Shown in pieces: positions 25,236-46,691 of a DNA stretch of 64,000 bases. Where the stretch lies: the NCBI GenBank assembly GCA_026004095.1, contig BPIL01000007.1, forward strand, positions 1 to 64,000, given 5' to 3'. The notes under the pieces were generated by a model. The model was given only the letters and a program-made list of their open reading frames with translations, was not told the DNA's origin and searched no databases. Positions within the stretch are counted from its first letter, which is position 1. Every line of letters starts with the position of its first letter. The DNA comes from Meiothermus sp. (GTDB taxonomy: Bacteria; Deinococcota; Deinococci; Deinococcales; Thermaceae). Position numbers and translations under genes: made by a program.

Positions 25236-25305
25236 CTGTGGACAATATACCTCTATTGACATAAAAAGACAAAAGTGTATATAGTTTGCTCATCTGTAGA
25301 CATAA
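25236..25305. promoter_or_regulatory. Promoter and candidate operators of the catabolic operon
   Basis: TTGACA (25256-25261) and TATAGT (25280-25285) form a forward promoter with an 18-base spacer. ATATAC (25245-25250) and GTATAT (25277-25282) are inverted around the -35, and CTGTGGACAATA (25236-25247) and CTGTAGACATAA (25294-25305) are similar direct copies. One copy of the 12-bp repeat ATATACCTCTAT is at 25245-25256. These are plausible GntR sites. Confidence 0.5.
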
Positions 25306-25360: not shown

Positions 25361-26518
25361 ATGAGGAGAATCGGCTTGTTCGGCACTTTTGTTCTGGGGA
25401 TTGTGGTGCTGGGATCAGCCCTGGCCCAGAGTCCCATCAAGGTGGGGTTCATCGGGGGGATGAGTGGGGGGTTCATCCAGCCCGAGCCAGCCAAAATACT
25501 CAAGGCCTACTTTGATAGGCTGAATGCCCAAGGAGGCATCGGGGGCCGGAAAGTCGAGTTCTATGCCGAGGACGATAGAACCAACCCGGCTGCTGCCAGC
25601 CAGGCCGCCCGTCGGCTGGTAGACGACATTGGTGTGGTGGCCCTTGTGGGCAGTGCCAGCGCTCTGGAGTGCAGCGTTAATGCCGCTTATTACGCGCAAA
25701 AGGGCGTGGTCTCGATCCAGGGAACCGGGGTGGATCCGGTCTGCTTTAACAGCCCCAACATCTCACCAGTAAACACCGGACCGTTTACCGCCAGCACCCT
25801 GATGTTGCAGTACGCAGCTGTAAATCTTAAAAAGGAGAAAATCTGTGCCTTTTTCACTCAGCTGCCCGGCCTCGAGCCCGCCTACCGTCAAGCCGTGGCC
25901 GACTTTGAGCAGATCACCGGGAAAAAAATACTGATACAAGACTACAGCTACAAGCCCGGCGACGACCCCACACCGTTGGTTTTGCGGGCCCGTCAGGCTG
26001 GTTGCGAAGCCACGTTGTTTGCTGGCAGCGATGCTTTTGCCATTACCTGGATGAACGCGGTCAAGACCCAGGGGCTTCTGAAGGCTAGCCAGTGGCTGTT
26101 CCTTCCTTCAACCTACACTGAAGCCTTTGCCAAAGCCATGGGCTCGAGCGCCAATGGGGTGCTGGTATCCTCTGAACTAGAACCTTACCTGGGCAACAAC
26201 CCCATCCTCAACGATTGGCGCGAACTTTCTCGCCAGAACAACATCCCCCTCACCGCCTTCAGCCTGGCCAGCTACCTGGCTGCTCAGATCTTTGTGGATA
26301 CCGTCAAAACCATCAGGGGTGAGATCACCCGTGAAAGCGTGACCGCAGCGTTCAAAAGCATGCGTCCCTACCGCACCCCGCTGATGGGCAATGCCTATAC
26401 CTTTGGCAACGCCCAGGCCCACCGCTCCAACCAGAGCATCAAGGTGCTCGAGCTGCGGGACGGGCAGTACTTCCTGGCCTATCCGGGCTGGATCCGACTG
26501 CAAGCACCCCAGCGCTAA
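25361..26518 (+). CDS. Branched-chain-amino-acid-type ABC transporter substrate-binding protein
   Basis: Receptor of a LIV-type importer and first gene of the catabolic operon. Residues 1-22 form a signal peptide (MRRIGLFGTFVLGIVVLGSA) and the mature part is a type-1 periplasmic binding fold (IKVGFIGGMSGGFIQPEPAK, LNAQGGIGGRKVEFYAEDDR). Length is 385 aa. The ATG at 25361 follows GGAGGAGG; an upstream extension to 25286 lies within the promoter and is rejected. LIV-type receptors next to catabolic genes often bind aromatic acids or other carboxylates rather than amino acids, which fits this context. The ligand is unknown. Confidence 0.87.
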   Translation: MRRIGLFGTFVLGIVVLGSALAQSPIKVGFIGGMSGGFIQPEPAKILKAYFDRLNAQGGIGGRKVEFYAEDDRTNPAAASQAARRLVDDIGVVALVGSASALECSVNAAYYAQKGVVSIQGTGVDPVCFNSPNISPVNTGPFTASTLMLQYAAVNLKKEKICAFFTQLPGLEPAYRQAVADFEQITGKKILIQDYSYKPGDDPTPLVLRARQAGCEATLFAGSDAFAITWMNAVKTQGLLKASQWLFLPSTYTEAFAKAMGSSANGVLVSSELEPYLGNNPILNDWRELSRQNNIPLTAFSLASYLAAQIFVDTVKTIRGEITRESVTAAFKSMRPYRTPLMGNAYTFGNAQAHRSNQSIKVLELRDGQYFLAYPGWIRLQAPQR

Positions 26519-26536
26519 CCCGCCCAGGAGCCCGCG

Positions 26537-27394
26537 ATGATCCAAGCCGCGATCGCCGGTCTGGTCTCTGGTGGTGTGTACGCGCTGCTAGGGGTCTGCG
26601 TGGTGCTGCTATACCGCATGGTGGGGGTGCTCAACCTGGCCCAGGCGGCCATTGGGGTGTTCGGAATGTTTGTGGTGCTGGTCTGCTACGAAAACCACTG
26701 GCCGCTGGGGCTTGCGGTGGCTATCGGACTGCTAACCTCAGCAGTCTTGGGAGGTTTGTTGGGCGGGGTGATGGCCCACTGGTTCTCCGAGGCCTCTTTA
26801 CAGGTGCGTTCGTCGGTGACCATTGCTTTCCTGATCAGCATCCTTACGGTGGGCATGTGGATTTTTGGCAGTGATCCTAGGCCGGTGCCAAATCTGGTGG
26901 GCACCGGCAGCCTGTGGGTGGGCGGTCTGGTAATTCCTCACCTGGCGCTGGTCATCCTTGGCACAGCACTGCTGCTGGCTGGGAGTATCTCACTGCTCTT
27001 GCAGCACACCTTGCTGGGGGTCTGGCTGCGGGCCCTGGCCGAGCGGCCCACTGCTGCCGAGCTGCTGGGGGTTCCTGCTCAAGCCCTTACCGTGGGGGTC
27101 TGGGCGGTAGCCGGGGCGATCTCCTGCCTGGCAATTCTGCTCATCGCCCCCAGCCGTTCACCGGAGTTTCCAGTGCTATCGCTGCTGGTGCTTCCGGGAA
27201 TGGCCGCGGCTTTGCTAGGGCTTTTCAAAAGCTTCTCCCTTACCATTCTGGGCGGCTTGGGCATCGGGCTCATCGAGGGACTGGCCTCGAGCCTCCCCGC
27301 CGTGGCCCCTTACCGACAGGCCCTTTGGTTCCTGGTAATGCTGGCCGCTTTACTGTGGATACAGCGCAAGGAGGTCTGGGATGCTGCGCGCTAG
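26537..27394 (+). CDS. LIV-type ABC transporter permease (LivH family)
   Basis: Membrane subunit of the importer, about eight hydrophobic segments over 285 aa. The N-terminal signature IAGLVSGGVYALLGVCVVLLY and VLNLAQAAIGVFGMF match the LivH family. It starts 18 bases after the receptor gene with CAGGAG and overlaps the next gene by 14 bases. It pairs with the LivM part of the following fusion protein. Confidence 0.87.
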   Translation: MIQAAIAGLVSGGVYALLGVCVVLLYRMVGVLNLAQAAIGVFGMFVVLVCYENHWPLGLAVAIGLLTSAVLGGLLGGVMAHWFSEASLQVRSSVTIAFLISILTVGMWIFGSDPRPVPNLVGTGSLWVGGLVIPHLALVILGTALLLAGSISLLLQHTLLGVWLRALAERPTAAELLGVPAQALTVGVWAVAGAISCLAILLIAPSRSPEFPVLSLLVLPGMAAALLGLFKSFSLTILGGLGIGLIEGLASSLPAVAPYRQALWFLVMLAALLWIQRKEVWDAAR

Positions 27395-29060
27395 CCCCTG
27401 GTTCCTTCTGGCGTTGATCGCGTTGGCCCTTCTACCTCTGCTGCTACCCAGCTATTGGCTTTTTTTGCTGACCAGCATGCTGATCTCAAGCATGGTGACC
27501 CTGAGTGTGGGGCTGGTAAGCGGTATGGCCGGGATGATCTCGCTGGGGCAGCTTTCTTTTGCCGGGGTGGGGGGGTGGATGGTGGCCTACTTTAACGCCA
27601 ACAATCTACCCATTCCCTTTGTCCTACAGGTTTTGATTGGTGCGCTGGTAGCCGTGCCGCTGGGCATCGTCATCGGCTTACCGGCTCTGCGGGTGCGGGG
27701 GATGCATCTGGCAGTTGTCACTTTTGGCTTTGCAGCGGTGGCCGATCTGTTCTTTACCATCCTGAACTTTCCCGGTGGGGTGATGGGCAAGCCGGTGCTG
27801 CGGCCTGATTTTTTGTCCCACGACCGCAGTTATTACTGGTTTTGCCTGTTCCTCTTTGCGCTTCTGGTGCTGGGGGTAAACGCCCTGTACCGCAGCCGCC
27901 TCGGCAGCGCCTGGCTGGCGGTCAAGCACAGTGAGCGCGCCGCAGCAGCTATGGGTCTGAACGTGGCCGCTACCAAGCTGTGGGCCTTCGCCATGAGTGC
28001 TTTTATAGCCGGTCTGAGCGGAGGACTTCTGGCCGGGCAGGTGGGCTTGTTGAGCGCCACCAACTTTTCACCCACCGCTTCACTGATTCTGTTCGCCAGC
28101 GCGATTATGGTGGGGGCGCGCTACCCCGCCGGGGCCGTTCTGGCCGGGATGATGGCCTGGTTGGTTCCCGAGGTGCTGGGCCGCTTGCACCTTTCGCAGA
28201 ACCTGGGCAACCTCATTTTCGCCCTGGGCACGATCGCTGCTCTAAAAGCCGGAGGGGGCGTTTTCGAGGTGGCAGCCCGGCAAAAAAAGCCTACTGCCAC
28301 ACCACTGTTTTCATCACCAGCAACCCTGGCACCCACCACCCACACCCCCACCGACCGGGTGGTGCTCGAGGTTCAAAACCTTTGCGTGGCCTACGGGCAG
28401 GTACAAGCCCTCAACAAGGTGAGCTTCAGCCTTAAGGAAGGCCAGGTGCTGGGGCTAGTAGGGCCCAATGGCGCGGGCAAGTCGAGTCTGGTAGATGCCC
28501 TTAGCGGCTTCACGCCCTACCAGGGACGCGTGCAGCTCGAGGGGCGAAGCCTGGAAGGGTTGAACGCTGCACAGCGGGCCCGCGCCGGGCTACGCCGTAG
28601 CTTCCAGCAGGATCGCACCATCACCGAGCTGAGCGTGCAGGCCTACCTGGAGTTCTCTGCTGGGCGTGCTCTGCCGAAGGAAGAGCTGGCCTGGGCCCTG
28701 GAATTTGCCGGGCTGACCGCGTTGGGCCTGGGGCTGCACAGTCTGAACATGGGCACCCGGCGCAGGCTCGAGGTAGCCGGCATCCTACTGTCCCGACCCA
28801 AGGTGGTACTGCTGGATGAACCAGCCGCAGGGCTCTCGAGCGAAGAAAGTCTGCAACTGGCCCGGCAGATTGCCAGTATACCGGCCCGCTATGGCTGTGC
28901 AGTGATTCTCATCGAACACGATATGGAGGTGGTACGGGCCGCTTGCAGCGAGGTGGTGGTGCTGGATTTCGGTTCCTTGATTGAAGCAGGCCCCACCACC
29001 AGGGTGCTATCGAGCCCACGGGTAGCCGCGGCCTATCTGGGCGAGGAGGTACTGGCATGA
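27381..29060 (+). CDS. LivM-LivG fusion: permease plus ATPase in one chain
   Basis: This 559-aa protein joins a LivM-type permease (about residues 1-300, with VSGMAGMISLGQLSFAGVGG and the loop RLGSAWLAVKHSERAAAAMG) to a LivG-type ATPase (about residues 325-559). The ATPase has Walker A (GPNGAGKSS), the signature at LHSLNMGTRRRLEVAGIL (a divergent form of LSGGQ), Walker B (VVLLDEPAAGL) and the switch His (LIEHDMEVV). A Pro/Thr-rich linker (TATPLFSSPATLAPTTHTPT) connects the parts. LivM-LivG fusions are known in some catabolic transporters. Overlaps livH by 14 and livF by 4 bases. Confidence 0.88.
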   Translation: MLRASPWFLLALIALALLPLLLPSYWLFLLTSMLISSMVTLSVGLVSGMAGMISLGQLSFAGVGGWMVAYFNANNLPIPFVLQVLIGALVAVPLGIVIGLPALRVRGMHLAVVTFGFAAVADLFFTILNFPGGVMGKPVLRPDFLSHDRSYYWFCLFLFALLVLGVNALYRSRLGSAWLAVKHSERAAAAMGLNVAATKLWAFAMSAFIAGLSGGLLAGQVGLLSATNFSPTASLILFASAIMVGARYPAGAVLAGMMAWLVPEVLGRLHLSQNLGNLIFALGTIAALKAGGGVFEVAARQKKPTATPLFSSPATLAPTTHTPTDRVVLEVQNLCVAYGQVQALNKVSFSLKEGQVLGLVGPNGAGKSSLVDALSGFTPYQGRVQLEGRSLEGLNAAQRARAGLRRSFQQDRTITELSVQAYLEFSAGRALPKEELAWALEFAGLTALGLGLHSLNMGTRRRLEVAGILLSRPKVVLLDEPAAGLSSEESLQLARQIASIPARYGCAVILIEHDMEVVRAACSEVVVLDFGSLIEAGPTTRVLSSPRVAAAYLGEEVLA

Positions 29061-29746
29061 GCTTGCGGGTTGAGGGGCTCTGTGTGGCCCGTGGGGAGGC
29101 GGTGGTGGTGCGAGAGGTGAGTTTCAGCGTGCCGCTGGGTGAAGTAACCGTGCTGCTGGGCCCCAACGGAGCCGGCAAGACCAGCCTGCTCGAAGCCCTT
29201 TCTGGCATTCTTCCCATCCAAGCGGGCCTCATAAAGCTCTGTGGCCGGGAGATGAGCCGGGCCTCCAGGGTGGTTCGCGCACGGGCCGGGCTATCCCATG
29301 TGCAGCAAGGTCGGGTGGTCTTCCCCACCTTAAGCGTGGAGGAGAACCTGCGGGTGGGCGCGCGGGATGGCCTCGAGGAGGCCTTTCACCTCTTCCCTGA
29401 GCTAGAAAAACGCCGCCATACCCCCGCCGGTCAGCTTTCTGGAGGTGAACAACAGATGGTGGTGCTGGCCCGGGCCATTCTGAGAAGGCCGCAAGTGCTC
29501 TTGGTAGACGAGATGTCGCTGGGACTGGCACCGCTGGTGGTAAAGCGGCTGCTACCGGTGCTCAAGGGTCTGGCCGAAGGAGGGGTGGGGGTCTTGCTGG
29601 TGGAACAGTTTGCCAGGCTGGCCCTCTCCCTGGGCCACCAGGCCCTGGTGATGAACCAGGGGCGGTTGGTGTACAGCGGCCCGGCCTCAGCCTTGTTGCA
29701 CCAGCCGGAGCTGCTGCAGTGGGCCTATCTAGGAAGGAGTGCTTGA
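29057..29746 (+). CDS. LIV-type ABC transporter ATPase (LivF family)
   Basis: Second ATPase of the importer, forming a heterodimer with the LivG half of the fusion. It carries Walker A (GPNGAGKTS), HVQQGRVVFPTLSVEENL (LivF-type Q-loop), the signature LSGGEQQMVVLARA, Walker B (VLLVDEMSLGL, with Met in place of Pro as common in LivF) and VEQFA in the switch region. Length 229 aa is typical. It overlaps the fusion gene by 4 bases (ATGA) and the next gene by 1 base (TGATG). Confidence 0.88.
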   Translation: MSLRVEGLCVARGEAVVVREVSFSVPLGEVTVLLGPNGAGKTSLLEALSGILPIQAGLIKLCGREMSRASRVVRARAGLSHVQQGRVVFPTLSVEENLRVGARDGLEEAFHLFPELEKRRHTPAGQLSGGEQQMVVLARAILRRPQVLLVDEMSLGLAPLVVKRLLPVLKGLAEGGVGVLLVEQFARLALSLGHQALVMNQGRLVYSGPASALLHQPELLQWAYLGRSA

Positions 29747-30168
29747 TGACCCGCGATTGCTACAACGAGTACATCCGCCGTTTCAACATGCAAGACCCGA
29801 CGGTTTTCGAGGAATTTCTAACCCCAAACGTCTACGTGCTCAACGGCACCCTCGAGCTCCGCGGCATCGAGGACATGCAGAAACACTACACCCGCATCTG
29901 GCACACCTTTCGCGAGACGCTGCACATCGAGCGCTTTGTGGCCGACCCGACCGGGCTGGCTGTGCAGATGTGGGCCCAGTTCACGGCCCTGCAGGAGGAT
30001 CCTGTCTCACCCTTCGGTGCGGTGCGCGCTGGCGAGCGCTTCGATTTCCACGGCCTGGTTTTATACACCCTGGAACAAGGTCGCTTTCGCGAGATTCGCG
30101 TGGCCTACAACCGCTTCGTGCACACTGACCTGGAAGGCCGGCAGACCGAGCTGGGCATCCCCCACTAA
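29746..30168 (+). CDS. NTF2/SnoaL-like small protein
   Basis: A 140-aa protein with the look of the NTF2/SnoaL fold: an N-terminal helix (YNEYIRRFNMQDPTVFEEFL), then the strand-rich region typical of ester/ketone isomerases, dehydratases and hydroxylase small subunits (LNGTLELRGIEDMQKHY, DFHGLVLYTLEQGRFREIRVAY). It could be an isomerase or dehydratase acting on a pathway intermediate. It starts in the livF stop (TGATG) and is the first enzyme-like gene after the transporter. No catalytic residues can be assigned with confidence. Confidence 0.65.
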   Translation: MTRDCYNEYIRRFNMQDPTVFEEFLTPNVYVLNGTLELRGIEDMQKHYTRIWHTFRETLHIERFVADPTGLAVQMWAQFTALQEDPVSPFGAVRAGERFDFHGLVLYTLEQGRFREIRVAYNRFVHTDLEGRQTELGIPH

Positions 30169-30182
30169 AAGGAGGTTAGAGA

Positions 30183-30968
30183 TTGGACGAAGCCCTGCAC
30201 AAAAGTCGTTCTCAACGCCTGGCCGGTAAAGTGGCTCTGGTCAGCGGGATTGGCAGCGGCATTGGCCAGGCTTGCGCCTTGATGTTTGCCCGGCATGGGG
30301 CCTGGGTGGTGGGCTGCGATCTAGACGCCTCCGCAGCCCAGGCCACCCTCGAAGCAGCCCGCTCCGAAGGCCTCGAGCTGGCCAGCCTCCACCCCTGCGA
30401 CCTAACCCGCCCGGCTGAGGTACAGCGCTGGGTGACGTATGCCCTGGGTCTGCACCAGCGCCTCGATGTGCTGGTAAACGCCGCCGCTGCTGCTGTTTTC
30501 AAGCCCATCGAGACGCTGAGCTTTGCCGAGTGGAAGCGCACCCTGGAGGCCGAGCTGGACACGGTCTTCCTGGTCTGCCAGGCAGCCTGGCCCTATCTCA
30601 AGCAAAACGGTGGCTCCATCATCAATTTTGCTTCAGCCAACGCTTACGGCGTACTCGAGCGGAGTCCGGCCCTGGCCCACTGCGCGGGCAAAGGAGGGGT
30701 GCTGGCCATGACCCGGCAGCTAGCCCTCGAGGGGGCACCCTATGGCATCCGGGCCAACACCATCTCGCCGGGTCTGGTGGTAACAGGGGCTACCGCCCCA
30801 GTCATCGCTGACCCAGAGATCCGTGCACTGTGGCTCAAGAAGCACATGCTGGGCCGCTTCGGCCAGCCGGAGGATGTGGCCTGGATAGCGGTGTTTTTGG
30901 CGTCGGACGAGTCGAGCTGGATCACCGCCTCCGATTTTGCGGTGGATGGAGGTACCCGAGCCTTATGA
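30183..30968 (+). CDS. Short-chain dehydrogenase/reductase with His in place of the catalytic Tyr
   Basis: An NAD(P)-dependent oxidoreductase of the classical SDR type, 261 aa. The cofactor motif is GIGSGIGQ (about residues 21-28) and NAAAAAVF replaces NNAG. In the active-site region the usual YxxxK reads HCAGK (LAHCAGKGG), so His occupies the Tyr position; the Lys remains. The TTG at 30183 is the best start since it follows GGAGG at good spacing. It overlaps the next gene by 4 bases. The reaction could be oxidation of a hydroxyl group on the imported compound; substrate unknown. Confidence 0.78.
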   Translation: MDEALHKSRSQRLAGKVALVSGIGSGIGQACALMFARHGAWVVGCDLDASAAQATLEAARSEGLELASLHPCDLTRPAEVQRWVTYALGLHQRLDVLVNAAAAAVFKPIETLSFAEWKRTLEAELDTVFLVCQAAWPYLKQNGGSIINFASANAYGVLERSPALAHCAGKGGVLAMTRQLALEGAPYGIRANTISPGLVVTGATAPVIADPEIRALWLKKHMLGRFGQPEDVAWIAVFLASDESSWITASDFAVDGGTRAL

Positions 30969-32335
30969 AATTCAAAGGCGATATCTTCTGGCAAGGAGAT
31001 GCAGGCTACGAAGAAGCCCGCGTGGGGCGCATCTTCAACGGGCGCAGACCCGCGCGCTACCCAAAAGCAGTCCTCTTTGCCGAGGACGAACAGGATGTGG
31101 TGGCCGCGGTGCGGCTGGCCAAGGAACAAGGGCTTAAGGTGGCGGTGCGCTCCGGAGGACATAGCTGGGCAGCCTGGGGCCTGCGTGATCAGGCGATCTT
31201 GCTTGATTTATCGCGGATGCAGACGATGGCCTACGACGAGGCCACTGGTATCGTGCAAGTGAGTCCAGCAGTTAAGGGGGGCCAGACCCTAGCCCCTTAC
31301 CTCGAGGCCCGGGGCCGCATGTTCCACGGGGGGCACTGTCCAACAGTAGGCCTGGGCGGCTTTCTCTTACAGGGCGGGATGGGTTGGAACTGCCGGGGCT
31401 GGGGCTGGGCCGCTGAAGCCATTGTGGCGATGGACGTCGTGACCGCTCAGGGCGAGCTGGTGCGGGCCGATACCCAGCATAACCCCGACCTCTTCTGGGC
31501 CGCTCGCGGGGCAGGGCCGGGGTTTTTTGGGGTGGTAACCCGGTTTTACCTGCAAACCCGGCCCCTACCCAAAGCCCCCACCCAGAGCACCCATATCTAC
31601 CCGCTGGACTGCTGGCAGGAGGTGCTCACCTGGCTTCAGGAGACCCACGCAACAGTGGACACCCGGGTGGAGCTGGTGGCGCTCAGCCTGGTACCCCCTG
31701 GTATGGATCGCCATGCCCTGGTGGTGCACGGCCTGGCCATGGTGGACACTCCGGAGGAAGGGCGCGAAGCCCTGGCCCTGCTCGAAACCTGTCCGGTGCT
31801 GGAGCGGGCCCTGGTGCACCAGGTGGCCCAACCCACCAGCTTTGCCCAGGAGCGCCAGGAGCAGCTACGACAAAACCCCGAGGGTTGCCGTTATGCGGTG
31901 GACAACGCCTGGCTGCAAGGAAGCCCAGCGGAGGTGGTGCCCCGCTTACACGAGGCTTTCACCCAACCACCGACCACCAAAACCTTCACCCTCTGGTATA
32001 GCATGGCCCCCTTGCGACCCCTGCCCGATATGGCCCTTTCGCTCCAGAGCGAGATTTATCTGGCTATCTACACCATCTGGGATGATGAGGCCGATGACGC
32101 GCGCTGCCGTAGCTGGCTGGCTCGGCAGATGACCACCCTCGAGCCCGTCACGTTGGGGCAGTACCTGGGCGACTCCGACTTCACCACCCGCTCGCTCAAA
32201 TTTATGAGCAATGCGAACTGGGCCCGTTTACAGGCCATCCGAGCTCAGCGCGACCCCGAAGGGCTGTTCGTCTCCTACCTGACAAGCAACCCCCTCACCC
32301 TCAACCAAAACCCCTGGGAGATGCGTCATGTTTGA
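30965..32335 (+). CDS. BBE-type FAD-linked oxidase with bicovalent-FAD motifs
   Basis: A flavin oxidase of the PCMH/berberine-bridge-enzyme family. The FAD domain (about residues 35-205) contains VRSGGHSWA, where the His would form the 8-alpha bond, and GGHCPTVGLGGFLLQGGMGW, whose Cys sits where BBE enzymes form the second (6-S-cysteinyl) bond. The C-terminal BBE segment (NANWARLQAIRAQRDPEGLF) is present. Such enzymes oxidise alcohols, sugars or benzylic positions with O2. The protein has 456 residues and no signal peptide, so it is cytoplasmic. Start ATG overlaps the previous TGA (ATGA). Confidence 0.82.
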   Translation: MKFKGDIFWQGDAGYEEARVGRIFNGRRPARYPKAVLFAEDEQDVVAAVRLAKEQGLKVAVRSGGHSWAAWGLRDQAILLDLSRMQTMAYDEATGIVQVSPAVKGGQTLAPYLEARGRMFHGGHCPTVGLGGFLLQGGMGWNCRGWGWAAEAIVAMDVVTAQGELVRADTQHNPDLFWAARGAGPGFFGVVTRFYLQTRPLPKAPTQSTHIYPLDCWQEVLTWLQETHATVDTRVELVALSLVPPGMDRHALVVHGLAMVDTPEEGREALALLETCPVLERALVHQVAQPTSFAQERQEQLRQNPEGCRYAVDNAWLQGSPAEVVPRLHEAFTQPPTTKTFTLWYSMAPLRPLPDMALSLQSEIYLAIYTIWDDEADDARCRSWLARQMTTLEPVTLGQYLGDSDFTTRSLKFMSNANWARLQAIRAQRDPEGLFVSYLTSNPLTLNQNPWEMRHV

Positions 32336-32741
32336 TCTGCACCCACACCATGTGGGCCTAAGCGTGCCCGACCTCGAGGCCAGTCGCCGCTGGTACAGCG
32401 AGATGCTGGGCTTCGAGTCAGAAAAAGAGCTGTTCATTGAACAGATTCCAGCCCGGGTGGCCTTTTTGCGGCGGGGGGCCTTCCGCCTCGAGCTTTTCGA
32501 GGTCGTAGGGGCCCAGGCCCTGCCTGAGGAGCGGCGGCAACCCCATACCGACTTGCGCACCCACGGTACCAAGCACCTGGCCTTTGTCGTGCCCGATGTG
32601 GATCAGGCCGTGGAGGCCCTGCGCGCACGGGGGGTGCGGGTGCTGCTGCACCAGCGCATCGGAGGTGAGCCCATGGCCTTTATCTGCGACAACGCAGGCA
32701 TCCTGCTCGAGCTCGTACAGGCTGCATCCTTTGGGGAATAG
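32328..32741 (+). CDS. VOC-superfamily protein (glyoxalase/epimerase-like)
   Basis: A 137-aa single-module vicinal-oxygen-chelate protein. [20 protein letters not shown] gives the first metal-ligand His, [14 protein letters not shown] the third strand His and GILLELVQ the Glu, the pattern of glyoxalase I and methylmalonyl-CoA epimerase-like enzymes. It may be an isomerase, epimerase or lyase acting after the oxidases. It overlaps the preceding oxidase gene by 8 bases and is followed 8 bases later by the HisD-like gene. Confidence 0.8.
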
Positions 32742-32749
32742 GAGGTTGT

Positions 32750-34776: not shown

Positions 34777-34801
34777 CGCACCTGCGCGGAAAGGAAGCAC
34801 C

Positions 34802-35830: not shown

Positions 35831-35839
35831 GAGGCACGG

Positions 35840-36601
35840 GTGGCACGCTTCATTGACCTATCAGCCCCGATCCAAAACAGCCACCCCGAGGTTCCGGAGT
35901 TTCAGCGCATCCGTATCGAGTTCTCCGATCATACCCAGGGGTTAGAGGAGGTGAAGCGGCTTTTTGGAATTGGCCCCGAGCTGCTTCGCAACGGCGAAGC
36001 CTGGGCGGTGGAAACCATCACCCAGCTCGGCACCCACAGTTCCACCCACCTCGACGCCCCCTACCACTACAACTCCCAGATTGGCGGGCGGCCCGCCCAG
36101 CGGATCGACGAGCTTCCCCTGGAGTGGTGCTTCGCGCCAGGGGTGGTGCTGGAGTTCCGCCACAAGGCCGACGGCGACGCGGTGCGGCTTGAAGAGGTAC
36201 AGTCCGAACTGGCGCGCATCGGCCACTCTCTGAAACCGCTGGACATCGTACTTATCCGCACCGGACGGGATGCCTTCTACGGCCAGCCCGACTACTGGAA
36301 ACGGGGGCCGGGGGTGACGGTGGAGACCACCCGCTGGCTCTTTGAGCAGGGGGTGCGGGTGATGGGAATTGACGCCTGGGGCTGGGATCGCCCGCTGTAC
36401 CTGCAGGCCCAGGAAGCCCTGGAGCAGCAGCGTCCCGGCATTTTCTGGGCCGCTCATCAGGCCGATCTGCCCTACGCGCAGATCGAACGGCTGTGCAACC
36501 TGGGAGCCCTGCCCCAGACCGGCTTCAAACTTTGCTGCTTTCCCTTGCGCATCGTGGGGGCCAGCGCCGCCCCGGCCCGGGTGGTGGCCATTTTGGAGTG
36601 A
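35840..36601 (+). CDS. Cyclase-family metal-dependent hydrolase
   Basis: A 253-aa protein of the kynurenine-formamidase-like/cyclase family (PF04199 type). The signature is LGTHSSTHLDAPYHY (about residues 62-76) with three His/Asp ligands, followed by LIRTGRDAFY and GIDAWGWDRP. Members hydrolyse amides or lactones, such as N-formylkynurenine or isatin. In this cluster it might open a lactone or cleave a ring-fission product. It starts with GTG 35840 after GGAGG, 9 bases after the dioxygenase stop. Confidence 0.82.
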   Translation: MARFIDLSAPIQNSHPEVPEFQRIRIEFSDHTQGLEEVKRLFGIGPELLRNGEAWAVETITQLGTHSSTHLDAPYHYNSQIGGRPAQRIDELPLEWCFAPGVVLEFRHKADGDAVRLEEVQSELARIGHSLKPLDIVLIRTGRDAFYGQPDYWKRGPGVTVETTRWLFEQGVRVMGIDAWGWDRPLYLQAQEALEQQRPGIFWAAHQADLPYAQIERLCNLGALPQTGFKLCCFPLRIVGASAAPARVVAILE

Positions 36602-36603
36602 GC

Positions 36604-37542
36604 ATGCCTCGACTGGATCTTCACGGACACCTCGAGCCGCCTACCTACAGCACCCAGGTAGCCCAGGCCCTTGGCCCGGCCCCCGTGCCCCCCTGGACGG
36701 TGGAGGCGCAGCTCGAGATGATGGCGCAGTACCAAATTGCAGCCACGGTGATCTCGCTGCCCCCGCCGGGGGTGTTTCTGGGTGATCAGGCCCAGGCCAA
36801 CGAGCTAGCCCGCCAGGTCAACGAGTTCTACGCTGCCTTGGTGCAGAAGCACCCAAAGCGGTATGCCGCGCTGGCTGCCCTACCACTGCCCGATGTGGAG
36901 GCTGCCCTTGCCGAGCTGGCCTATGCCCTGGATGTGCTCCGGCTGGACGGGGTGGCGCTTTTCACCCAGACCGCTGGCCTTTACCTGGGCGACCCCCAAT
37001 GGGAACCCCTGATGGCTGAACTCGACCAGCGGGGAGCTTACGTTTTTGTGCACCCCACCCTTCCCCCTTATACCAACCCATTAGCGAAAGCCCCCGTCTG
37101 GGTACTGGAGTTTCCCTTCGAGACCACCCGGGCCATCACCCACATGCTCTACTCGGGTATCTTCCATCGCTACCCTCGGATCCGCTTCCAGTTTGCCCAT
37201 CTGGGGGGGGCTGTTCCCTTTTTAGCCCACCGGCTGGCCTCCTTGGTCGAGCGGGAGCCCAGGTTCAAGCTCACGGAGCAGGTGCCCGAAGGGCCGCTGG
37301 CCTATCTGCGCCGGCTATACTACGACACCGGCCTTTCTAACCACACCCCGGCCCTGGCTGCCACCCTCGAGGTAACCGACCCCGGACAGGTGGTTTTTGG
37401 CACCGACTGGCCCTACGCCCTGCTGCCCCCCGGCCACGACCCGGCCCCTGGTCTGGCCTATCTGGGCGACCGGCGCCACCAGGTGGAGTTTGAGAACGCT
37501 CGAGCCCTTGTCCCACGTTTGTTTGAAAAGGAGATCGCATGA
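36604..37542 (+). CDS. Amidohydrolase-2 family protein (ACMSD-like)
   Basis: A 312-aa TIM-barrel metalloenzyme. The metal-binding residues are visible: LDLHGHLEP (HxH), FVHPTLPPY, FAHLGGAVPF and FGTDWPYA (Asp). These are characteristic of the family containing 2-amino-3-carboxymuconate-semialdehyde decarboxylase and gamma-resorcylate decarboxylase, so a decarboxylation of a ring-fission product or aromatic acid, or a hydrolysis, is plausible. Start ATG 36604 lies 2 bases after the cyclase stop; it overlaps the following gene by 4 bases. Confidence 0.82.
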   Translation: MPRLDLHGHLEPPTYSTQVAQALGPAPVPPWTVEAQLEMMAQYQIAATVISLPPPGVFLGDQAQANELARQVNEFYAALVQKHPKRYAALAALPLPDVEAALAELAYALDVLRLDGVALFTQTAGLYLGDPQWEPLMAELDQRGAYVFVHPTLPPYTNPLAKAPVWVLEFPFETTRAITHMLYSGIFHRYPRIRFQFAHLGGAVPFLAHRLASLVEREPRFKLTEQVPEGPLAYLRRLYYDTGLSNHTPALAATLEVTDPGQVVFGTDWPYALLPPGHDPAPGLAYLGDRRHQVEFENARALVPRLFEKEIA

Positions 37543-38543
37543 AAATTGCCCGACTTCGCTACCCCAGTCCAGATGGCCCTGAGATTCGCATTGTGGTTGA
37601 GGCCCTGGGCCATCCGGGCCGTTGGGTGGACGTACGCAACACAGCCCGTCGGGCCTTCGAACGACGGGGGGCTACTGTCGGCGCTGCCCTGCAGCTGGCA
37701 CGCACCCTGGTTCCCAGCAGCCTGAGCCAGGCCCTCGAGAACGGCGAGGCCTTCCTGGATGCCCTGGCCCAGGCTGCTGCCGATACCAGCGGGGAAACCC
37801 TGGCAGCGGAAGGGGGCCAGTTCGTCGCTCCCATTGACCCCAGCCTCTACCGCGACTTTCTTTCCTTTGAGGTGCACTTCACCAACGCCGCCCGCTTGAA
37901 CAACCACGGGGTGAGCCCGGTGCTCTACGAGATTCCCATCGGCTATATGGGCAACGCACTGTCGTTTATCGGCCCCGACGAGGAGGTGCCCTGGCCCTTT
38001 TATGCCCAGGAGCGCATGGACTACGAGCTCGAGCTGGGTATCGTCATTGCCCGTGGAGGACGAGACATCCAGCCCGAACGAGCCCGGAAGCACATCCTGG
38101 GCCTGACCATCCTCAATGACTTCAGTGCCCGTGACATCCAGCTCCGCGAGATGCAGGGTCGGCTGGGCCCCTCCAAAGGCAAGCACTTCTGCAATGCGGT
38201 AGGGCCGGTGATCGTAACCCTGGACGAACTGCCCGCCGGAGGATTACAGATGAGCGCACGGGTCAACGGCGAGGTCTGGTCGAGCGGCAACAGCGGCAGC
38301 ATGCTGTGGTCACTGGAAGAGTTGGTAGCCTGGGCCTCGGCCGGTGAACCCCTGCCGGCGGGCGCCCTTCTGGGCTCGGGCACGGTGGGTTTCGGCTGCG
38401 GGATGGAGTTGCAAAAATACCCTCAGCCCGGTGACTTGATCGAACTCGAGGTCGAGGGCATCGGGGTGCTGCGCAACCGCCTGGGTCAGCGACCCGCCCA
38501 GGGTTGGCTACCCAGCCCCAAGACCCCCACCATTCAGGTTTGA
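37539..38543 (+). CDS. Fumarylacetoacetate hydrolase-family enzyme 1
   Basis: A 334-aa member of the FAH family, which hydrolyses acylpyruvates or hydrates/decarboxylates products of meta cleavage. The N-terminal 105 residues form a variable domain; the FAH core includes LNNHG, YELELGIVIARGGRDI (ExE metal ligands), LNDFSARDIQLREMQG and KGKHFCNAVGP (KGKxF motif of fumarylacetoacetase-like enzymes), and SSGNSGSMLWSLEELV. The closest classical match is fumarylacetoacetase. The start overlaps the amidohydrolase by 4 bases. Confidence 0.84.
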   Translation: MKIARLRYPSPDGPEIRIVVEALGHPGRWVDVRNTARRAFERRGATVGAALQLARTLVPSSLSQALENGEAFLDALAQAAADTSGETLAAEGGQFVAPIDPSLYRDFLSFEVHFTNAARLNNHGVSPVLYEIPIGYMGNALSFIGPDEEVPWPFYAQERMDYELELGIVIARGGRDIQPERARKHILGLTILNDFSARDIQLREMQGRLGPSKGKHFCNAVGPVIVTLDELPAGGLQMSARVNGEVWSSGNSGSMLWSLEELVAWASAGEPLPAGALLGSGTVGFGCGMELQKYPQPGDLIELEVEGIGVLRNRLGQRPAQGWLPSPKTPTIQV

Positions 38544-38555
38544 AGGAGGCAGTGC

Positions 38556-39596
38556 ATGAAGCCTTTTCATCTAGGAACCTTTAGTGCCGGGGGCGGCCCT
38601 GCCTTTGCAGGGGTGGTGATCGAAGGGCAGGTGATCGCTGCTGCGGCCCTGGCCCCGCTGTGCGCCCGGCTGGGTTATGAGCTGCGTCAGCCCGAGCAGG
38701 TGCTGGGCTTGCTGGAAGACTGGCCGCGCAACTTTACCGCCTTGGCTGCAGCGGTGGAGGCCATCCGCAACGGACAGGCAACTGGCCTGCCCTTCATCGC
38801 AGAGTCGCAGCTCCAGGTGTTACCCCCGGTGCTACCCCGACAGATCTTCTGCTCCGGCGCTAACTATAAAAAGCATGTGGTGGACTTAATTGTGGCCCAG
38901 GGGGGGCCCCACCTCGATGGTAAAACCTCAGAGGAGCGGCGGATTTGGGGCATACAGCGCATGGACGAGCGAGCCCAGCGGGGCAAACCCTTCGTCTTCA
39001 CCAAACTGCCCTCCAGCATCATTGGCCCCTTCGACCCCATCACGTTGCCCCCGGAGATCCAGCAGGCCGACTGGGAGCTGGAACTGGGGGTCGTAATCGG
39101 CCGGCCAGCCCGCCGCGTACCGCGCGCCGCCGCCCTTGAGTACGTAGCCGGCTATGTGGTGGTCAACGACATTACCGCCCGCGAACTAGTCTACCGGCCC
39201 GATATCCCCGAGATGGGCATGGACTGGCTCATCTCAAAAAGCGCCCCCGGGTTTTTGCCAGTGGGTCCCTACCTGACCCCAGCCGCTTTCATCCCCGATC
39301 CGCAAAACCTCACCGTCACCCTCAAGCTTAATGGCCAGGTAATGCAGCATGAGTCCACCGCCGACATGATCTTTGGGGTGGCTCACCTGATCGAGTACAT
39401 CTCGGCGTATGTGCAGCTTTGGCCCGGCGACCTGATCTGCACCGGCTCTCCTGCTGGCAATGGAATGCACTACAACCGCTTCCTGCGGGAGGGGGATGTG
39501 CTCGAGGGCAGCATCGACGGGCTGGGCACCCAACGCAACCGCTGCCAGTTAGAGGCCCTGAGCCCTGCGGCTTTCGGAAGGGGGGTCAGGGTCTAG
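38556..39596 (+). CDS. Fumarylacetoacetate hydrolase-family enzyme 2
   Basis: A second FAH-family protein, 346 aa, only distantly similar to its neighbour. Signature: SGANYKKHV, WELELGVVIGRPARRV (ExE ligands), GYVVVNDITARELVYR and GDLICTGSPAGNGM. This is the 2-hydroxyhepta-2,4-diene-1,7-dioate isomerase / acylpyruvase type. Having two different FAH enzymes suggests one acts as isomerase or decarboxylase and the other as C-C hydrolase, as in homoprotocatechuate or gentisate degradation. Start ATG follows GGAGG, 12 bases after gene 1. Confidence 0.84.
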   Translation: MKPFHLGTFSAGGGPAFAGVVIEGQVIAAAALAPLCARLGYELRQPEQVLGLLEDWPRNFTALAAAVEAIRNGQATGLPFIAESQLQVLPPVLPRQIFCSGANYKKHVVDLIVAQGGPHLDGKTSEERRIWGIQRMDERAQRGKPFVFTKLPSSIIGPFDPITLPPEIQQADWELELGVVIGRPARRVPRAAALEYVAGYVVVNDITARELVYRPDIPEMGMDWLISKSAPGFLPVGPYLTPAAFIPDPQNLTVTLKLNGQVMQHESTADMIFGVAHLIEYISAYVQLWPGDLICTGSPAGNGMHYNRFLREGDVLEGSIDGLGTQRNRCQLEALSPAAFGRGVRV

Positions 39597-39609
39597 ATTG
39601 GGAGGAACC

Positions 39610-40740
39610 ATGCCAAGCGTAGAAAAAATACTGATTGTAGGTGGCGGTATCGCAGGCTTATGCACCGCTGTGGGTCTCAAGAATAGCGGCATCGAGACTG
39701 AGATCGTCGAGCTCAACCCCAAGTGGGATGTCTACGGGGTGGGCATCATTCAGTTGGCCAATGCGCTGCGGGCCCTGGCTGCTTTGGGCTTAGCCAAAGA
39801 AGCCATCGCGGAGGGGTTCCCCATGTCCTCGCTGGTGATGTGGCGGCCGGATGGCGAGCCAATCGCCACCCTTCCCCAGCCGCAGATTGCGGGGCCGGAT
39901 TTCCCTCCTCAGAATGGCATTGCTCGGCCCAAGCTGCACAGCATCCTACAAAAAGCGGCGCAGGCCGCCGGGGCCAGGGTACGCCTGGGGCTTACGGTAG
40001 CGCACCTCGAGCCCACCCCTCATTCGGTCAAGGTTAGCTTCACCGACGGCAGCCATGGCGAGTACGACCTGGTGGTAGGGGCCGACGGCCTGCGCTCCAA
40101 AGTGCGCCGATTGGCCTTCCCCGGCACGCCCGAGCCCCAGTACGAGGGTCAGGTGGTCTGGCGCTACAACCTGCCCCGCCCGGCGGAGGTGGACAACATC
40201 TGGATGTGGATGGGGGATCCCAAAGTGGGCATCGTGCCGCTGGGCCCCAACCTGATGTACATGTTCATCACCGACGCCGCGCCCGGCTCCCCTCCGCGCT
40301 TCCCGGAAGCAGCCCTGGCCCAGGAAATGCAAAAGCGCCTGGACGGCTACCGCCATATCCCTTTGCTAGCCCAGCTACGCGCACAAATTACCGACCCCAG
40401 CAAGGTGGTTCTGCGCCCCTTCGAGACGATTTTGGTTCCTACTCCCTGGAACCGGGGCCGGGTGGTGCTGATAGGCGATGCCGCCCACGCCATGACCGCC
40501 CACATCGCCCAGGGCGCCGCCATGGCCATCGAAGATGCAGTGGTGCTCACCGAAGAGCTGCGCCGCCAGACCAGCCTGGAAGCGGCCTTGCAGGCGTACA
40601 ACCACCGGCGTTTTGACCGGGTGCGCCAGATGGTCGAGATGTCACGTCAACTTTGCATCTGGGAACGCACCCACGACCCCAAAGCCGACCCCGTGGGGTT
40701 GACCATGGCCTCCGTGCAGCTAGCTGCCCAACCAATATGA
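39610..40740 (+). CDS. FAD-dependent aromatic hydroxylase-like monooxygenase
   Basis: A class A flavoprotein monooxygenase of 376 aa. The dinucleotide motif is VGGGIAGLCTAVGLKNSG (about residues 10-27), the DG motif is VVGADGLRSKVRR, and the GD motif is VLIGDAAHAMTAHIAQGAAM. These are the marks of p-hydroxybenzoate and salicylate hydroxylases, which insert one oxygen into an activated ring using NAD(P)H. It likely supplies the diol for the extradiol dioxygenase. Start ATG 39610 follows GGGAGG; it overlaps the next gene by 4 bases. Confidence 0.84.
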   Translation: MPSVEKILIVGGGIAGLCTAVGLKNSGIETEIVELNPKWDVYGVGIIQLANALRALAALGLAKEAIAEGFPMSSLVMWRPDGEPIATLPQPQIAGPDFPPQNGIARPKLHSILQKAAQAAGARVRLGLTVAHLEPTPHSVKVSFTDGSHGEYDLVVGADGLRSKVRRLAFPGTPEPQYEGQVVWRYNLPRPAEVDNIWMWMGDPKVGIVPLGPNLMYMFITDAAPGSPPRFPEAALAQEMQKRLDGYRHIPLLAQLRAQITDPSKVVLRPFETILVPTPWNRGRVVLIGDAAHAMTAHIAQGAAMAIEDAVVLTEELRRQTSLEAALQAYNHRRFDRVRQMVEMSRQLCIWERTHDPKADPVGLTMASVQLAAQPI

Positions 40741-41753
40741 GCAGGAATCCCCTTCATGGCTTTCGGGTCGAACGCACCCAGATTGGTTTTATCGGCCACG
40801 ACCTGCAGCGCCCCGAGTGCATCCTGGCCGAACCCGACGGCACCCTGTGGGTGGCCGATGCCCGGGGGGGTGTGGTGCGGATTGCCTCCGACGGAAGCCA
40901 GCAGGTCATCACCCCGCTGATCCAGGGAAAGGCCCTGAACGCCTCCTTCGAAGCGCGCTATGTGGAGGCCCAAGGTTCGCTGCCCAACGGGCTGTGCTTT
41001 GACGAGAACGGCAACTTTATCATCGCCAACTGGGGTACCAACGCCCTGGAGCACATGACCCGTGTAGGCCACCTGCGTACCCTTTATACCGAAATCGAGG
41101 GCCAGCCGCTGGGCAAAGTCAACTTCCCTTTGCGCGACTCTAAGGGGCGTATATGGTTTAGCGTGACAACCCGTGAGGAGCCCTGGACCAAACAGGTCAA
41201 CAGCAAGGTTAGCGACGGCTACATTGGGTTAATAGACCAGAAAGGAATTCGCATCGTAGCTGAGGGTTTTTGTGGCACCAACGAGATTCGCTTCGATGCG
41301 CGTGAGGAGTGGCTTTATGTGGTGGAGAGCACTGCCCGCCGCATCACTCGCCTGCGCCATCGCAACGGCGAGCTGTACGAGCGCGAGGTCTACGGGCCCA
41401 GCGAACTCGAGGGCCACCCCGACGGCTTCGCCTTCGATGCGTTTGGCAACCTCTGGATCACGCTGATCTTCCTGGATAAGCTGATCGCCATCACCCCCGA
41501 GGGAGAGGTGCTCGAGCTGCTCGACGACAGCAACCCTGTTGCCAATGCCGTCTACGAGCAACACTTCCGGGCCGGAACCCTCACCCCAGAGATCATGGCC
41601 GCTAACCACGGCACCCTCTGCCCCTGGATGGCCAGCCTGACCTTCGGGGGGCCGGATTTGTGCACGGTCTATCTGGGCAGTCTGCGCGGCAACCGTATTC
41701 CCTACTTCCGCAGCCCGGTGCCGGGCCAGCCCATGATCCACTGGAGGTGTTGA
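40737..41753 (+). CDS. SMP-30/gluconolactonase-family hydrolase
   Basis: A 338-aa six-bladed beta-propeller lactonase. Likely divalent-metal ligands are Glu in RPECILAEPDG, Asn in LPNGLCFDENG and Asp in GHPDGFAFDAFG; WVAD, FIIANWG and LWIT are propeller blade strands. The family hydrolyses sugar lactones and other cyclic esters. No signal peptide is seen, so it is cytoplasmic. It may open a lactone formed by the oxidase or dehydrogenases of the cluster. It overlaps both neighbours by a few bases (ATGA and TGATG). Confidence 0.83.
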   Translation: MSRNPLHGFRVERTQIGFIGHDLQRPECILAEPDGTLWVADARGGVVRIASDGSQQVITPLIQGKALNASFEARYVEAQGSLPNGLCFDENGNFIIANWGTNALEHMTRVGHLRTLYTEIEGQPLGKVNFPLRDSKGRIWFSVTTREEPWTKQVNSKVSDGYIGLIDQKGIRIVAEGFCGTNEIRFDAREEWLYVVESTARRITRLRHRNGELYEREVYGPSELEGHPDGFAFDAFGNLWITLIFLDKLIAITPEGEVLELLDDSNPVANAVYEQHFRAGTLTPEIMAANHGTLCPWMASLTFGGPDLCTVYLGSLRGNRIPYFRSPVPGQPMIHWRC

Positions 41754-42523
41754 TGCACCCACTGTTCGACCTGAGCGGCACGGTGGCGCTGGTGACCGGC
41801 GGCAGCCGGGGCATCGGGCTGGCCAGTGCCCGACTGTTGGCCGAATTGGGGGCTCAGGTGGTACTCTCGAGCGAAGACCCCAGAGCCTGCGCCACTGCCG
41901 AGGCCGAGTTGCGCACGCACGGGCTGGCAGCCTGGGGTCTTCCTTGTGACGTAGGGGAAAAACCACAGATTGAGCGACTGGTAGAGCAAACCCTGGAACG
42001 CTTCGGACGGATTGATGCCCTGGTGGCCGCCGCCGGGGTGGCTCCGCATTTCGGCCCCATGCTGAGCGCTTCCGAGGCCGACTGGGCAACCACCATGCGG
42101 ATTAACTTGCAAAGCAACCTCTGGTTAGCTGGTCTGGTGATCCCCCAGATGCTGGGCCGCGGGGGTAGCCTGGTGTTTATCGCCAGCTTATCGGCCTTGC
42201 GGGGCAACCAGGCGATAGGCTTGTACGCTGTTTCCAAGGCTGGACTGGCCCAACTGGCCCGCGACCTGGCTGTGCAGTATGGCCCTCAGGGGGTGCGGGT
42301 CAACGCAGTGGCGCCGGGGCTAATTCGCACCGTATTTGCCCAACGCTTGCTGGAAAACCCGGCCTTCATGGAACGCCGGATCTCCCATACCCCTCTACGC
42401 CGGGTGGGCGAGCCCGAGGATGTTGCCGGGGCTGTGGCTTTTCTGGTGAGCCGAGCCGGGGCCTTTGTAACCGGCCAGACCCTGGTGGTGGACGGGGGCA
42501 CCCTGATCTCCGATGGGAGCTGA
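41753..42523 (+). CDS. Short-chain dehydrogenase/reductase
   Basis: A classical SDR of 256 aa with TGGSRGIG (residues 16-23), VAAAGVA replacing NNAG, Ser in IASLSAL and the catalytic YAVSK (GLYAVSKAGL). The segment IRTVFAQRLLENPAFMERRI and the end GGTLISDG resemble the DHRS4-like or 3-ketoacyl reductase groups. It starts in the SMP-30 stop (TGATG) and ends 2 bases before the epimerase. Third SDR of the cluster; substrate unknown. Confidence 0.82.
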   Translation: MHPLFDLSGTVALVTGGSRGIGLASARLLAELGAQVVLSSEDPRACATAEAELRTHGLAAWGLPCDVGEKPQIERLVEQTLERFGRIDALVAAAGVAPHFGPMLSASEADWATTMRINLQSNLWLAGLVIPQMLGRGGSLVFIASLSALRGNQAIGLYAVSKAGLAQLARDLAVQYGPQGVRVNAVAPGLIRTVFAQRLLENPAFMERRISHTPLRRVGEPEDVAGAVAFLVSRAGAFVTGQTLVVDGGTLISDGS

Positions 42524-42525
42524 GC

Positions 42526-43461
42526 ATGAGAGTTCTAGTTACCGGAGCCAACGGCTTTGTGGGGCGCTGGCTGGTACGCCTGCTGCTGACCAACAATTCC
42601 CTCGAGCCCACCCAGCTCCTCCTGCTCGACCGAAAGTTCGACGTCGCCCACACAGATCCTCGGATCCAAACCCTAGAGGGCAACTTTTTCCAGCCGCACG
42701 TGCTCGAGGAAGCCTTAGCCAAACCAGTGGGGGTGGTGTTTCACCTAGCCAGCATCCCTGGCGGCCTGGCCGAGCAGGCCCTTGAGCTGGGCCTGGAGGT
42801 TAACCTAAAGGGCACCCTGGCCCTCTTCGAAGCCCTGCGCAAGCAACCCAGAGCACCGGTAGTGGTCTTTGCCAGCAGCATCGCAGTGTATGGCTCGCCC
42901 CTGCCGGGCCGGGTGGATACCCATACCCCTCCCAACCCCAGCAGCAGCTACGGCACCCAGAAGCTCCTCGGAGAGTATCTCCTGCTGGACTATTCGCGGC
43001 GGGGCGAGCTCGATGGCCGGGCCCTGCGCCTGCCGGGCATCGTGGCCCGCCCACCCGAGCCTTCAGGGCTGGTCTCAGCCTTTATGGGCGAGGTCATGCA
43101 CCGCCTCAAAGCAGGCCAGCCCTACACCGCACCGGTTTCCCCTCAGGCCACCATGTGGTGGATGTCGGCCCACTGCTGCGCAATAAACCTGATTCACGCC
43201 GCCACTTTGCCCAGCCAAGCAGTCTATCCGCGGGTCATCCTGCTACCTGCATTGCGGGCTAGCATGCAAGAGGTGGTAGATGGGCTGGCAGCCCGCTATG
43301 GCCCCAACCGGCGCCACCTAATCCGCTATCAGCCCGATGAGGCCATTGAGAGTCGGTTTGGCTGCTTTCCCAGCCTTGATGCCAGCGTGGCCGAAGCAAT
43401 GGGGTTCCGCCACGATAGCGATATAAACTCACTCATATTCAATGCCTTGGAGAGAGCATAA
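42526..43461 (+). CDS. NAD-dependent epimerase/dehydratase family, DenD-like
   Basis: An extended SDR of 311 aa: cofactor motif VTGANGFVG (residues 5-13), FHLASIPGG, SSIAVYGSPLPG and the catalytic YGTQK. The HLASIPGG and SSIAVYG stretches are typical of D-erythronate dehydrogenase (DenD) and its relatives, which act on four-carbon sugar acids. In this cluster it may handle a polyhydroxylated side chain or cleavage product. It is the last gene of the operon; 20 bases later the antiporter gene converges. Confidence 0.8.
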   Translation: MRVLVTGANGFVGRWLVRLLLTNNSLEPTQLLLLDRKFDVAHTDPRIQTLEGNFFQPHVLEEALAKPVGVVFHLASIPGGLAEQALELGLEVNLKGTLALFEALRKQPRAPVVVFASSIAVYGSPLPGRVDTHTPPNPSSSYGTQKLLGEYLLLDYSRRGELDGRALRLPGIVARPPEPSGLVSAFMGEVMHRLKAGQPYTAPVSPQATMWWMSAHCCAINLIHAATLPSQAVYPRVILLPALRASMQEVVDGLAARYGPNRRHLIRYQPDEAIESRFGCFPSLDASVAEAMGFRHDSDINSLIFNALERA

Positions 43462-45549: not shown

Positions 45550-45561
45550 AAACGCTAACTC

Positions 45562-45590
45562 AATATATTTTCATTTTTCTGTATTGACAA
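45562..45590 (-). promoter_or_regulatory. Promoter of the LacI-family gene
   Basis: On the minus strand TTGTCA (45590-45585) and TATATT (45567-45562) are 17 bases apart. Its -35 overlaps the -35 of the divergent TRAP promoter. Confidence 0.6.
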
Positions 45591-45613
45591 GGTTTTTGTG
45601 TTTAGGTTATCGT
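45584..45613 (+). promoter_or_regulatory. Promoter of the TRAP operon
   Basis: TTGACA (45584-45589) and TATCGT (45608-45613) have an 18-base spacer. The -10 lies inside the operator at 45605-45618, an arrangement in which bound repressor excludes RNA polymerase. Confidence 0.6.
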
Positions 45614-45618
45614 TTACC
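45605..45618. promoter_or_regulatory. LacI-type operator in the TRAP promoter
   Basis: GGTTATCGTTTACC has a central CG and arms matching at five of seven positions, the usual form of a LacI/GalR-family operator. Confidence 0.6.
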
Positions 45619-45643
45619 CAACTAAATCAAACAGGAGGCAGGC

Positions 45644-46682: not shown

Positions 46683-46691
46683 AGCCAATCG

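Follow-up and report, generated by a model that had tools for sequence, protein, structure and literature searches.

This study concerns a run of 19 genes at positions 25361-43461 in a 64,000-nucleotide stretch of DNA from Meiothermus sp. (GenBank assembly GCA_026004095.1, contig BPIL01000007.1, positions 1 to 64,000), which is referred to here as the window and lies within contig 7 of a genome of 2.77 Mb that is 84% complete. All 19 genes are on the forward strand, four of them coding for transport proteins and 15 for other proteins, and their coordinates and families, as assigned with Pfam and NCBIfam, are collected in Table 1. The gaps between the genes range from -14 to 25 bases and, with the start codons chosen in this analysis, neighbouring genes overlap at 10 of the 18 junctions. 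The largest gap measures 136 bases and separates the first gene of the block from a divergent gene for a GntR/FCD regulator, which starts at 25224 on the other strand. The original prediction, made from the sequence alone, had described one strand, gaps of at most 25 bases, many overlaps and a divergent GntR/FCD gene at the head, all of which the coordinates bear out, and every enzyme family that it listed is present as named. The block of genes that it described stands as well, with the number of genes corrected from 18 to 19, one of the transport genes being a permease-ATPase fusion. The frame of this LivM-LivG fusion comprises 559 amino acids, and frames of similar length occur in two related genomes (G031 and G024, see below).

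Upstream of the first operon gene lies TTGACA-18-TATAGT, the promoter-like site with the highest score in the region. The number of such sites is no evidence in itself, because four were found against a mean of 3.5 in shuffled sequences, and a palindrome scan of the gap between regulator and operon found none. With moderate confidence, we regard the block as a single regulated operon with which a polyphenol aglycone of the flavonoid type is taken up and degraded aerobically by meta-cleavage of the A-ring.

Table 1. Features of the operon and its upstream region. G031, second Meiothermus genome; G024, sister-genus genome; L004, Deinococcus aetherius plasmid; L006, Rhizobium rhizogenes K84 plasmid; L009, Anaerolineae locus; L094-L096, plasmid-borne clusters from Massilia, Azospirillum and Burkholderia. 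Percentages are identities.
Feature	Position	Strand	Evidence
GntR/FCD regulator	24493..25224	-	Pfam FCD and GntR above cut-off; 100% in G031, 79% in G024, 36% in L004
Promoter-like site TTGACA-18-TATAGT (predicted)	25256..25285	+	Score 11/12; kept in the intergenic alignment with G031 and G024
LIV-type solute-binding protein	25361..26518	+	Peripla_BP_6 5.7e-52
LivH-type permease	26537..27394	+	BPD_transp_2
LivM permease-LivG ATPase fusion	27381..29060	+	BPD_transp_2 and ABC_tran in a single frame
LivF ATPase	29057..29746	+	ABC_tran
NTF2/SnoaL-like protein	29743..30168 (ATG at 29746)	+	SnoaL_2 4e-9; 52% in L009
SDR1	30183..30968	+	adh_short_C2; 57% in L006
BBE/EncM-type FAD-linked oxidase	30965..32335	+	FAD_binding_4; best solved relative EncM 4.1e-39; 61% in L009
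Small VOC protein	32328..32741	+	Glyoxalase_4; 63% in L009
HpsN-like HisD-family member	32750..34039	+	Sulfopropanediol 3-dehydrogenase 1.4e-116 against best HisD 1.6e-87
SDR2	34036..34776 (ATG at 34039 overlaps HisD stop)	+	Family match; 57% beside HisD in Massilia L094
Type I two-domain extradiol dioxygenase	34802..35830	+	TIGR03211 1.2e-70, below cut-off
Cyclase-family (isatin-hydrolase-like) hydrolase	35840..36601	+	Cyclase 3.4e-36; 71% in L004
ACMSD/5-carboxyvanillate-decarboxylase-like amidohydrolase	36598..37542	+	Amidohydro_2; PDB matches; HxH at 9
FAH-family hydrolase 1 (FAH1)	37539..38543	+	FAA_hydrolase; 61% in L004
FAH-family hydrolase 2	38556..39596	+	FAA_hydrolase; relatives HpaG and acylpyruvase
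Group A flavin monooxygenase, PRK06847 subfamily	39598..40740	+	498 bits, cut-off 372; 69% in L009
SMP-30/gluconolactonase-like protein	40737..41753	+	SGL 4e-20; 60-73% in L004, L009, L094, L095
SDR3	41750..42523	+	Family match; 54% in L004
DenD-like NAD-dependent epimerase/dehydratase-family protein	42526..43461	+	50-54% in L004, L094-L096

The operon is accessory, since it is present in only four of the 111 genomes of the class, its own included; the dioxygenase (E <=1e-80) and the SMP-30 protein (<=1e-60) are found in the same four genomes. A second Meiothermus genome (G031) carries the whole operon in unchanged order, with a DNA identity of 95% over 24423-49783 and of 93-94% over two stretches upstream. 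In a genome of the sister genus (G024), the same order is kept without HisD, SDR2 and SDR3, at a DNA identity of 72-77% in the aligned parts, and on a short contig of the fourth genome (G030) the VOC gene is directly followed by the dioxygenase gene. The gene order is beyond chance, because it is kept in G031 and, minus three genes, in G024. Such conserved synteny, which the original prediction had left to be searched for, is thus present in G031 and G024, and the core of the operon is shared outside the genus as well, so that the set of genes is not an unknown one.

HisD and SDR2 are jointly absent from the operon site in two of the relatives (G024 and G030). The presence of a BBE-type oxidase and an HpsN-like enzyme and the resemblance of the amidohydrolase to 5-carboxyvanillate decarboxylase would suit an operon for the breakdown of some other plant aromatic whose side chain is a polyol or propanoid (a lignan, an arylglycerol or a lignin-derived dimer). 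The BBE-type oxidase, the HpsN-like enzyme and the SDRs would then first oxidise that chain, and cleavage of the ring would follow; HpsN oxidises a terminal diol. However, the operon of G024 is otherwise the same without HisD and SDR2, in G024 and G030 the HisD-family matches at other sites reach only 39% and 37%, and the relatives of the SMP-30 and DenD-like proteins are located in flavonoid-type clusters, which makes a side-chain substrate of this kind rather unlikely. The same relatives weaken the part that the original prediction had given to these two proteins in the oxidation and lactone opening of a polyhydroxylated side chain.

The HisD-family protein is nearer in sequence to HpsN than to HisD, and its 463.5 bits also clear the cut-off of the general hisD model TIGR00069 (243.8). 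The DenD-like protein is below the D-erythronate dehydrogenase model NF043036 (256.9 bits, cut-off 325). In an alignment of four dioxygenases, His153, His218 and Glu270 of the extradiol dioxygenase are invariant, positions of the kind that we take to be iron ligands in this class. Its matches to the models of catechol 2,3-dioxygenase (TIGR03211) and HpaD could indicate a conventional meta pathway for catechol or homoprotocatechuate accompanied by unrelated passengers, but both scores are below the curated cut-offs (238.2 of 320.2 bits and 155.2 of 321.4 bits, respectively), the Pfam matches of the operon proteins include no family of semialdehyde dehydrogenases, tautomerases or aldolases, and the relatives retain the same enzyme set; this reading is very improbable. 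The cyclase-family hydrolase carries the motif HxxTHxDxPxH at 66, and at 1e-6 its solved relatives are only isatin hydrolases. The amidohydrolase has PDB matches to the decarboxylases of 5-carboxyvanillate and ACMS. Two further genes resembling extradiol dioxygenases are found in the genome at C7:155026-155892 and C5:82881-83669, with 41% and 30% identity to that of the operon.

Beyond the Thermaceae, a genome scan with the alignment of four dioxygenases gave 239 confirmed loci, of which the best 80 were kept. The flanks reached 10 kb at most and were complete for 62 of these loci. Genes counted as occurring together lie inside the fetched flanks, not necessarily in one operon. Dioxygenase, monooxygenase, cyclase, amidohydrolase and two FAH enzymes co-occur in 50 of the 80 loci (42 of these 50 are among the 62 with full flanks), and the single classes are found in 67 (monooxygenase), 69 (cyclase), 62 (amidohydrolase) and 73 (at least one FAH) of the 80. 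Most of the loci are actinobacterial and many are closely related, and therefore they are not independent cases. All six classes of this cassette are present in the window operon according to Pfam. On a plasmid (L004) of D. aetherius, a species of the same phylum as Meiothermus, seven core genes stand in the order of the window with two extra genes between them: dioxygenase (53% identity), cyclase (71%), FAH1 (61%), monooxygenase (44%), SMP-30 (71%), SDR3 (54%) and DenD-like (51%). The Anaerolineae locus has a different gene order and higher identities in part (SMP-30 73%, monooxygenase 69%, cyclase 68%, VOC 63%, BBE 61%, dioxygenase 55%, NTF2 52%, SDR1 41%), the matches to the DenD-like protein and FAH1 being weak (30%). 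In a tree of 13 rows, the window monooxygenase groups with that of Anaerolineae (100/99) and then with that of a Gaiellaceae bacterium (97/94).

The original prediction knew of no described pathway with this set of enzymes. Against this stand the wide distribution of the lower enzymes in 50 of the 80 loci and two described flavonoid pathways with like first two steps, fde and ifc (PMC11069340, PMC11303751, PMC8552027). In Herbaspirillum seropedicae, FdeE and the Rieske protein FdeD hydroxylate naringenin at C8, after which the A-ring is opened (PMC8552027, PMC11303751). IfcA of Variovorax carries out the C8 hydroxylation of isoflavones, and IfcB acts next (PMC11069340). As stand-ins for FdeE, FdeC, IfcA and IfcB, we used plasmid clusters of Massilia, Azospirillum and Burkholderia (L094-L096), which are fde-like by their make-up and not by identity to fde and carry monooxygenase, Rieske protein and VOC dioxygenase genes adjacent to each other. 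All three share with the window the monooxygenase (42-44%), the DenD-like protein (50-54%) and FAH1 (30-31%); two of the three share SMP-30 (67% and 60%, the Massilia copy being located about 16 kb from the monooxygenase) and two share the cyclase (43-44%). In the Massilia cluster alone, HisD (63%) adjoins SDR2 (57%) in the arrangement seen in the window. The window monooxygenase, which scores above the PRK06847 cut-off, is predicted to be a group A flavin monooxygenase like those of fde and ifc.

A second link leads to the C-glycoside deglycosidases. The three genes preceding the dioxygenase in D. aetherius code for an AP_endonuc_2 TIM barrel, a CGDB protein (PF19906, named "C-glycoside deglycosidase beta subunit" in Pfam) and a GMC oxidase. 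CGDB was confirmed with Pfam in L005 and L064 also and, with home-made profiles, found within the flanks of 23 of the 80 loci. PF19906 was then searched in every genome that holds one of the 80 loci, 79 in total, in sets of 13 (nine chosen for CGDB in the flanks and four for its absence), 49 and 17, and its rate was compared with that in 14 controls; it occurs in 50 of the 79 dioxygenase-bearing genomes (11, 31 and 8 across the sets) and in none of the controls. In 38 of these 50 genomes, the coordinates place at least one copy no more than 42 kb from the dioxygenase, a count that omits copies on other contigs of the same genome (e.g., L028, L040, L049, L062, L083). In the remaining 12, CGDB is far away, on another contig or undecided, some assemblies being fragmented and some copies clearly distant. 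Where the contig identity was checked, in 11 genomes, all 50 CGDB copies, five of them under the Pfam cut-off, are located 2.9-34.7 kb from the dioxygenase. One of the CGDB-linked genomes is that of Arthrobacter globiformis NBRC 12137, in which five copies were found. AgCGD1 and AgCGD2 of this strain cleave oxidised C-glycosyl flavones (PMC8563793) and are taken to be among the five copies because these are all that were found in the strain, a match not made by sequence. In the Gaiellaceae bacterium KatS3mg012 (L064, 3474-14886), four CGDB and three TIM-barrel genes precede the dioxygenase, monooxygenase, FAH and cyclase genes; the KatS3mg metagenome-assembled genomes come from hot springs.

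This association of the dioxygenase family with C-glycoside deglycosidases in other genomes could mean that the substrate of the operon is an aromatic C- or O-glycoside still carrying its sugar, which is removed by enzymes from outside the operon or by a new mechanism, oxidation of the sugar by the BBE-type or HpsN-like enzyme. CGDB, however, was not found in the window's own genome, which is 84% complete, or in G031, G024 and G030, and no glycosidase family is among the Pfam matches of the operon, O-glycosidases elsewhere in the genome not having been sought; we regard a glycoside substrate as quite improbable. The aromatic glycosides or C-glycosides named among the possible substrates in the original prediction came close with respect to the neighbours of the dioxygenase family elsewhere, no CGDB having been found in these four genomes.

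The reading that we favour, with reasonable though not firm confidence, is that the Thermaceae have their own variant of A-ring meta-cleavage of the flavonoid type, with aglycones as substrates. The gene set, its conservation, the enzyme families and the recurrent neighbours are observed, and the substrate class, the reactions, the module roles and the order of lower steps are inferred from them. The ABC transporter would take up a flavonoid-type compound, and the group A monooxygenase would hydroxylate it beside a ring hydroxyl to give a catechol; a mode of action like that of FdeE and IfcA would place the new hydroxyl at position 8. The catechol ring would then be opened by the extradiol dioxygenase, and the cyclase-family hydrolase, the two FAH enzymes, the SMP-30 lactonase and the amidohydrolase, likely a decarboxylase, may cut and decarboxylate the ketoacid chain, with SDR3 and the DenD-like enzyme adjusting its oxidation state. 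Of the steps in the original prediction, import, hydroxylation of the ring, its extradiol cleavage and the breakdown of the chain find support in the relatives. An alpha/beta hydrolase, the likely C-C hydrolase, occurs in nine of the 80 loci and in L004, L006 and L094-L096. As a candidate for a missing C-C hydrolase encoded elsewhere in the Thermaceae genomes, it was rejected on partial matches of 23-28%; the lack of a close match suggests that the cyclase or an FAH enzyme makes the C-C cut in the Thermaceae operon. NTF2-SDR1-BBE-VOC and HisD-SDR2 are seen as add-on modules that may broaden the substrate range or prepare side groups, and they are the least understood part of the operon. Scattered relatives of both modules are found on plasmid pAtK84c of Rhizobium rhizogenes K84 (L006, 9733-23263; HisD 66%, SDR1 57%, VOC 41%, dioxygenase 46%, monooxygenase 47%, DenD-like 41%).

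Several results weigh against the favoured reading. The dioxygenase is not of the FdeC/IfcB type: compared with the FdeC-like proteins of the stand-in clusters, it shows 24-26% identity across some 115-120 residues. Neither a Rieske protein nor a cupin is among the Pfam matches of the operon proteins, the rest of the genome not having been searched, and the operon has no LysR gene. In the monooxygenase tree, the deeper nodes leading to the actinobacterial and fde-like rows lack resolution. No close counterpart of the D. aetherius alpha/beta hydrolase was found in the window's own genome (G000), G031, G024 or G030, and PF19906 gave no match in any of these four Thermaceae genomes, the first of which is 84% complete. 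Finally, 29 of the 79 dioxygenase-bearing genomes are without CGDB, and therefore the cassette is not tied to C-glycosides alone. As judged from the proteins compared, strict membership in fde or ifc fails on the dioxygenase subfamily and on the Rieske or cupin partners; the window operon probably works like them.

More tentatively, and with somewhat less than even confidence, the six-enzyme cassette may be the half of the aerobic C-glycosyl-flavonoid pathway in soil bacteria that degrades the aglycone and has gone unrecognised. The Thermaceae would then have a thermophilic form with two oxidation modules, one of EncM-like BBE, NTF2, SDR and VOC proteins and one of HpsN-like HisD and SDR, whose chemistry would be new for flavonoids. 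The cassette names candidate genes for the fate of the aglycone in soil bacteria after C-glycoside cleavage. The word dioxygenase does not occur in the main text of the two C-glycoside papers searched (PMC10646112, PMC8563793), and a literature search linking C-glycoside aglycones to extradiol ring cleavage found no paper. Among the matches listed for Meiothermus, none is a paper on the operon, most subscription journals being outside the coverage of the search. If the favoured reading is true, flavonoid breakdown would be placed in hot-spring Deinococcota, and the operon would be a source of heat-stable flavonoid hydroxylases and ring-opening enzymes. Beside the operon, at 44524-50974, a separate small cluster contains a LacI-type regulator gene divergent from a TRAP transporter (DctP 45705-46682, DctM 47187-48470), followed by a gene for an Ldh_2 protein of the malate/L-lactate dehydrogenase type (49520-50974).

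Three known systems can be compared with the operon. With fde of Herbaspirillum seropedicae, which acts on naringenin, it would share the hydroxylation of the A-ring at C8 by a flavin monooxygenase and the subsequent ring opening, whereas the window operon lacks a Rieske protein and has a different dioxygenase subfamily, a regulator of the GntR/FCD type and a LIV transporter, fde being compared through the stand-in clusters. FdeR, the regulator of fde, is of the LysR type. The ifc pathway of Variovorax for isoflavones takes the same first two steps with a monooxygenase of group A and a dioxygenase of the glyoxalase fold (PMC11069340); unlike ifc, which was likened by description and not by the sequences of IfcA and IfcB, the window operon has no cupin such as IfcD1 or IfcD2. 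The C-glycoside loci (CarA/CGD) of Arthrobacter, Microbacterium and D. aetherius differ in that the window operon is without CGDB, the TIM-barrel partner and the GMC oxidase, in its LIV-type transporter and in the monooxygenases, those of actinobacteria being mostly 33-39% alike. They have in common with it the dioxygenase family, at 48-55% identity in actinobacteria and 53% in D. aetherius, and the six lower enzyme classes nearby in 50 of the 80 loci.

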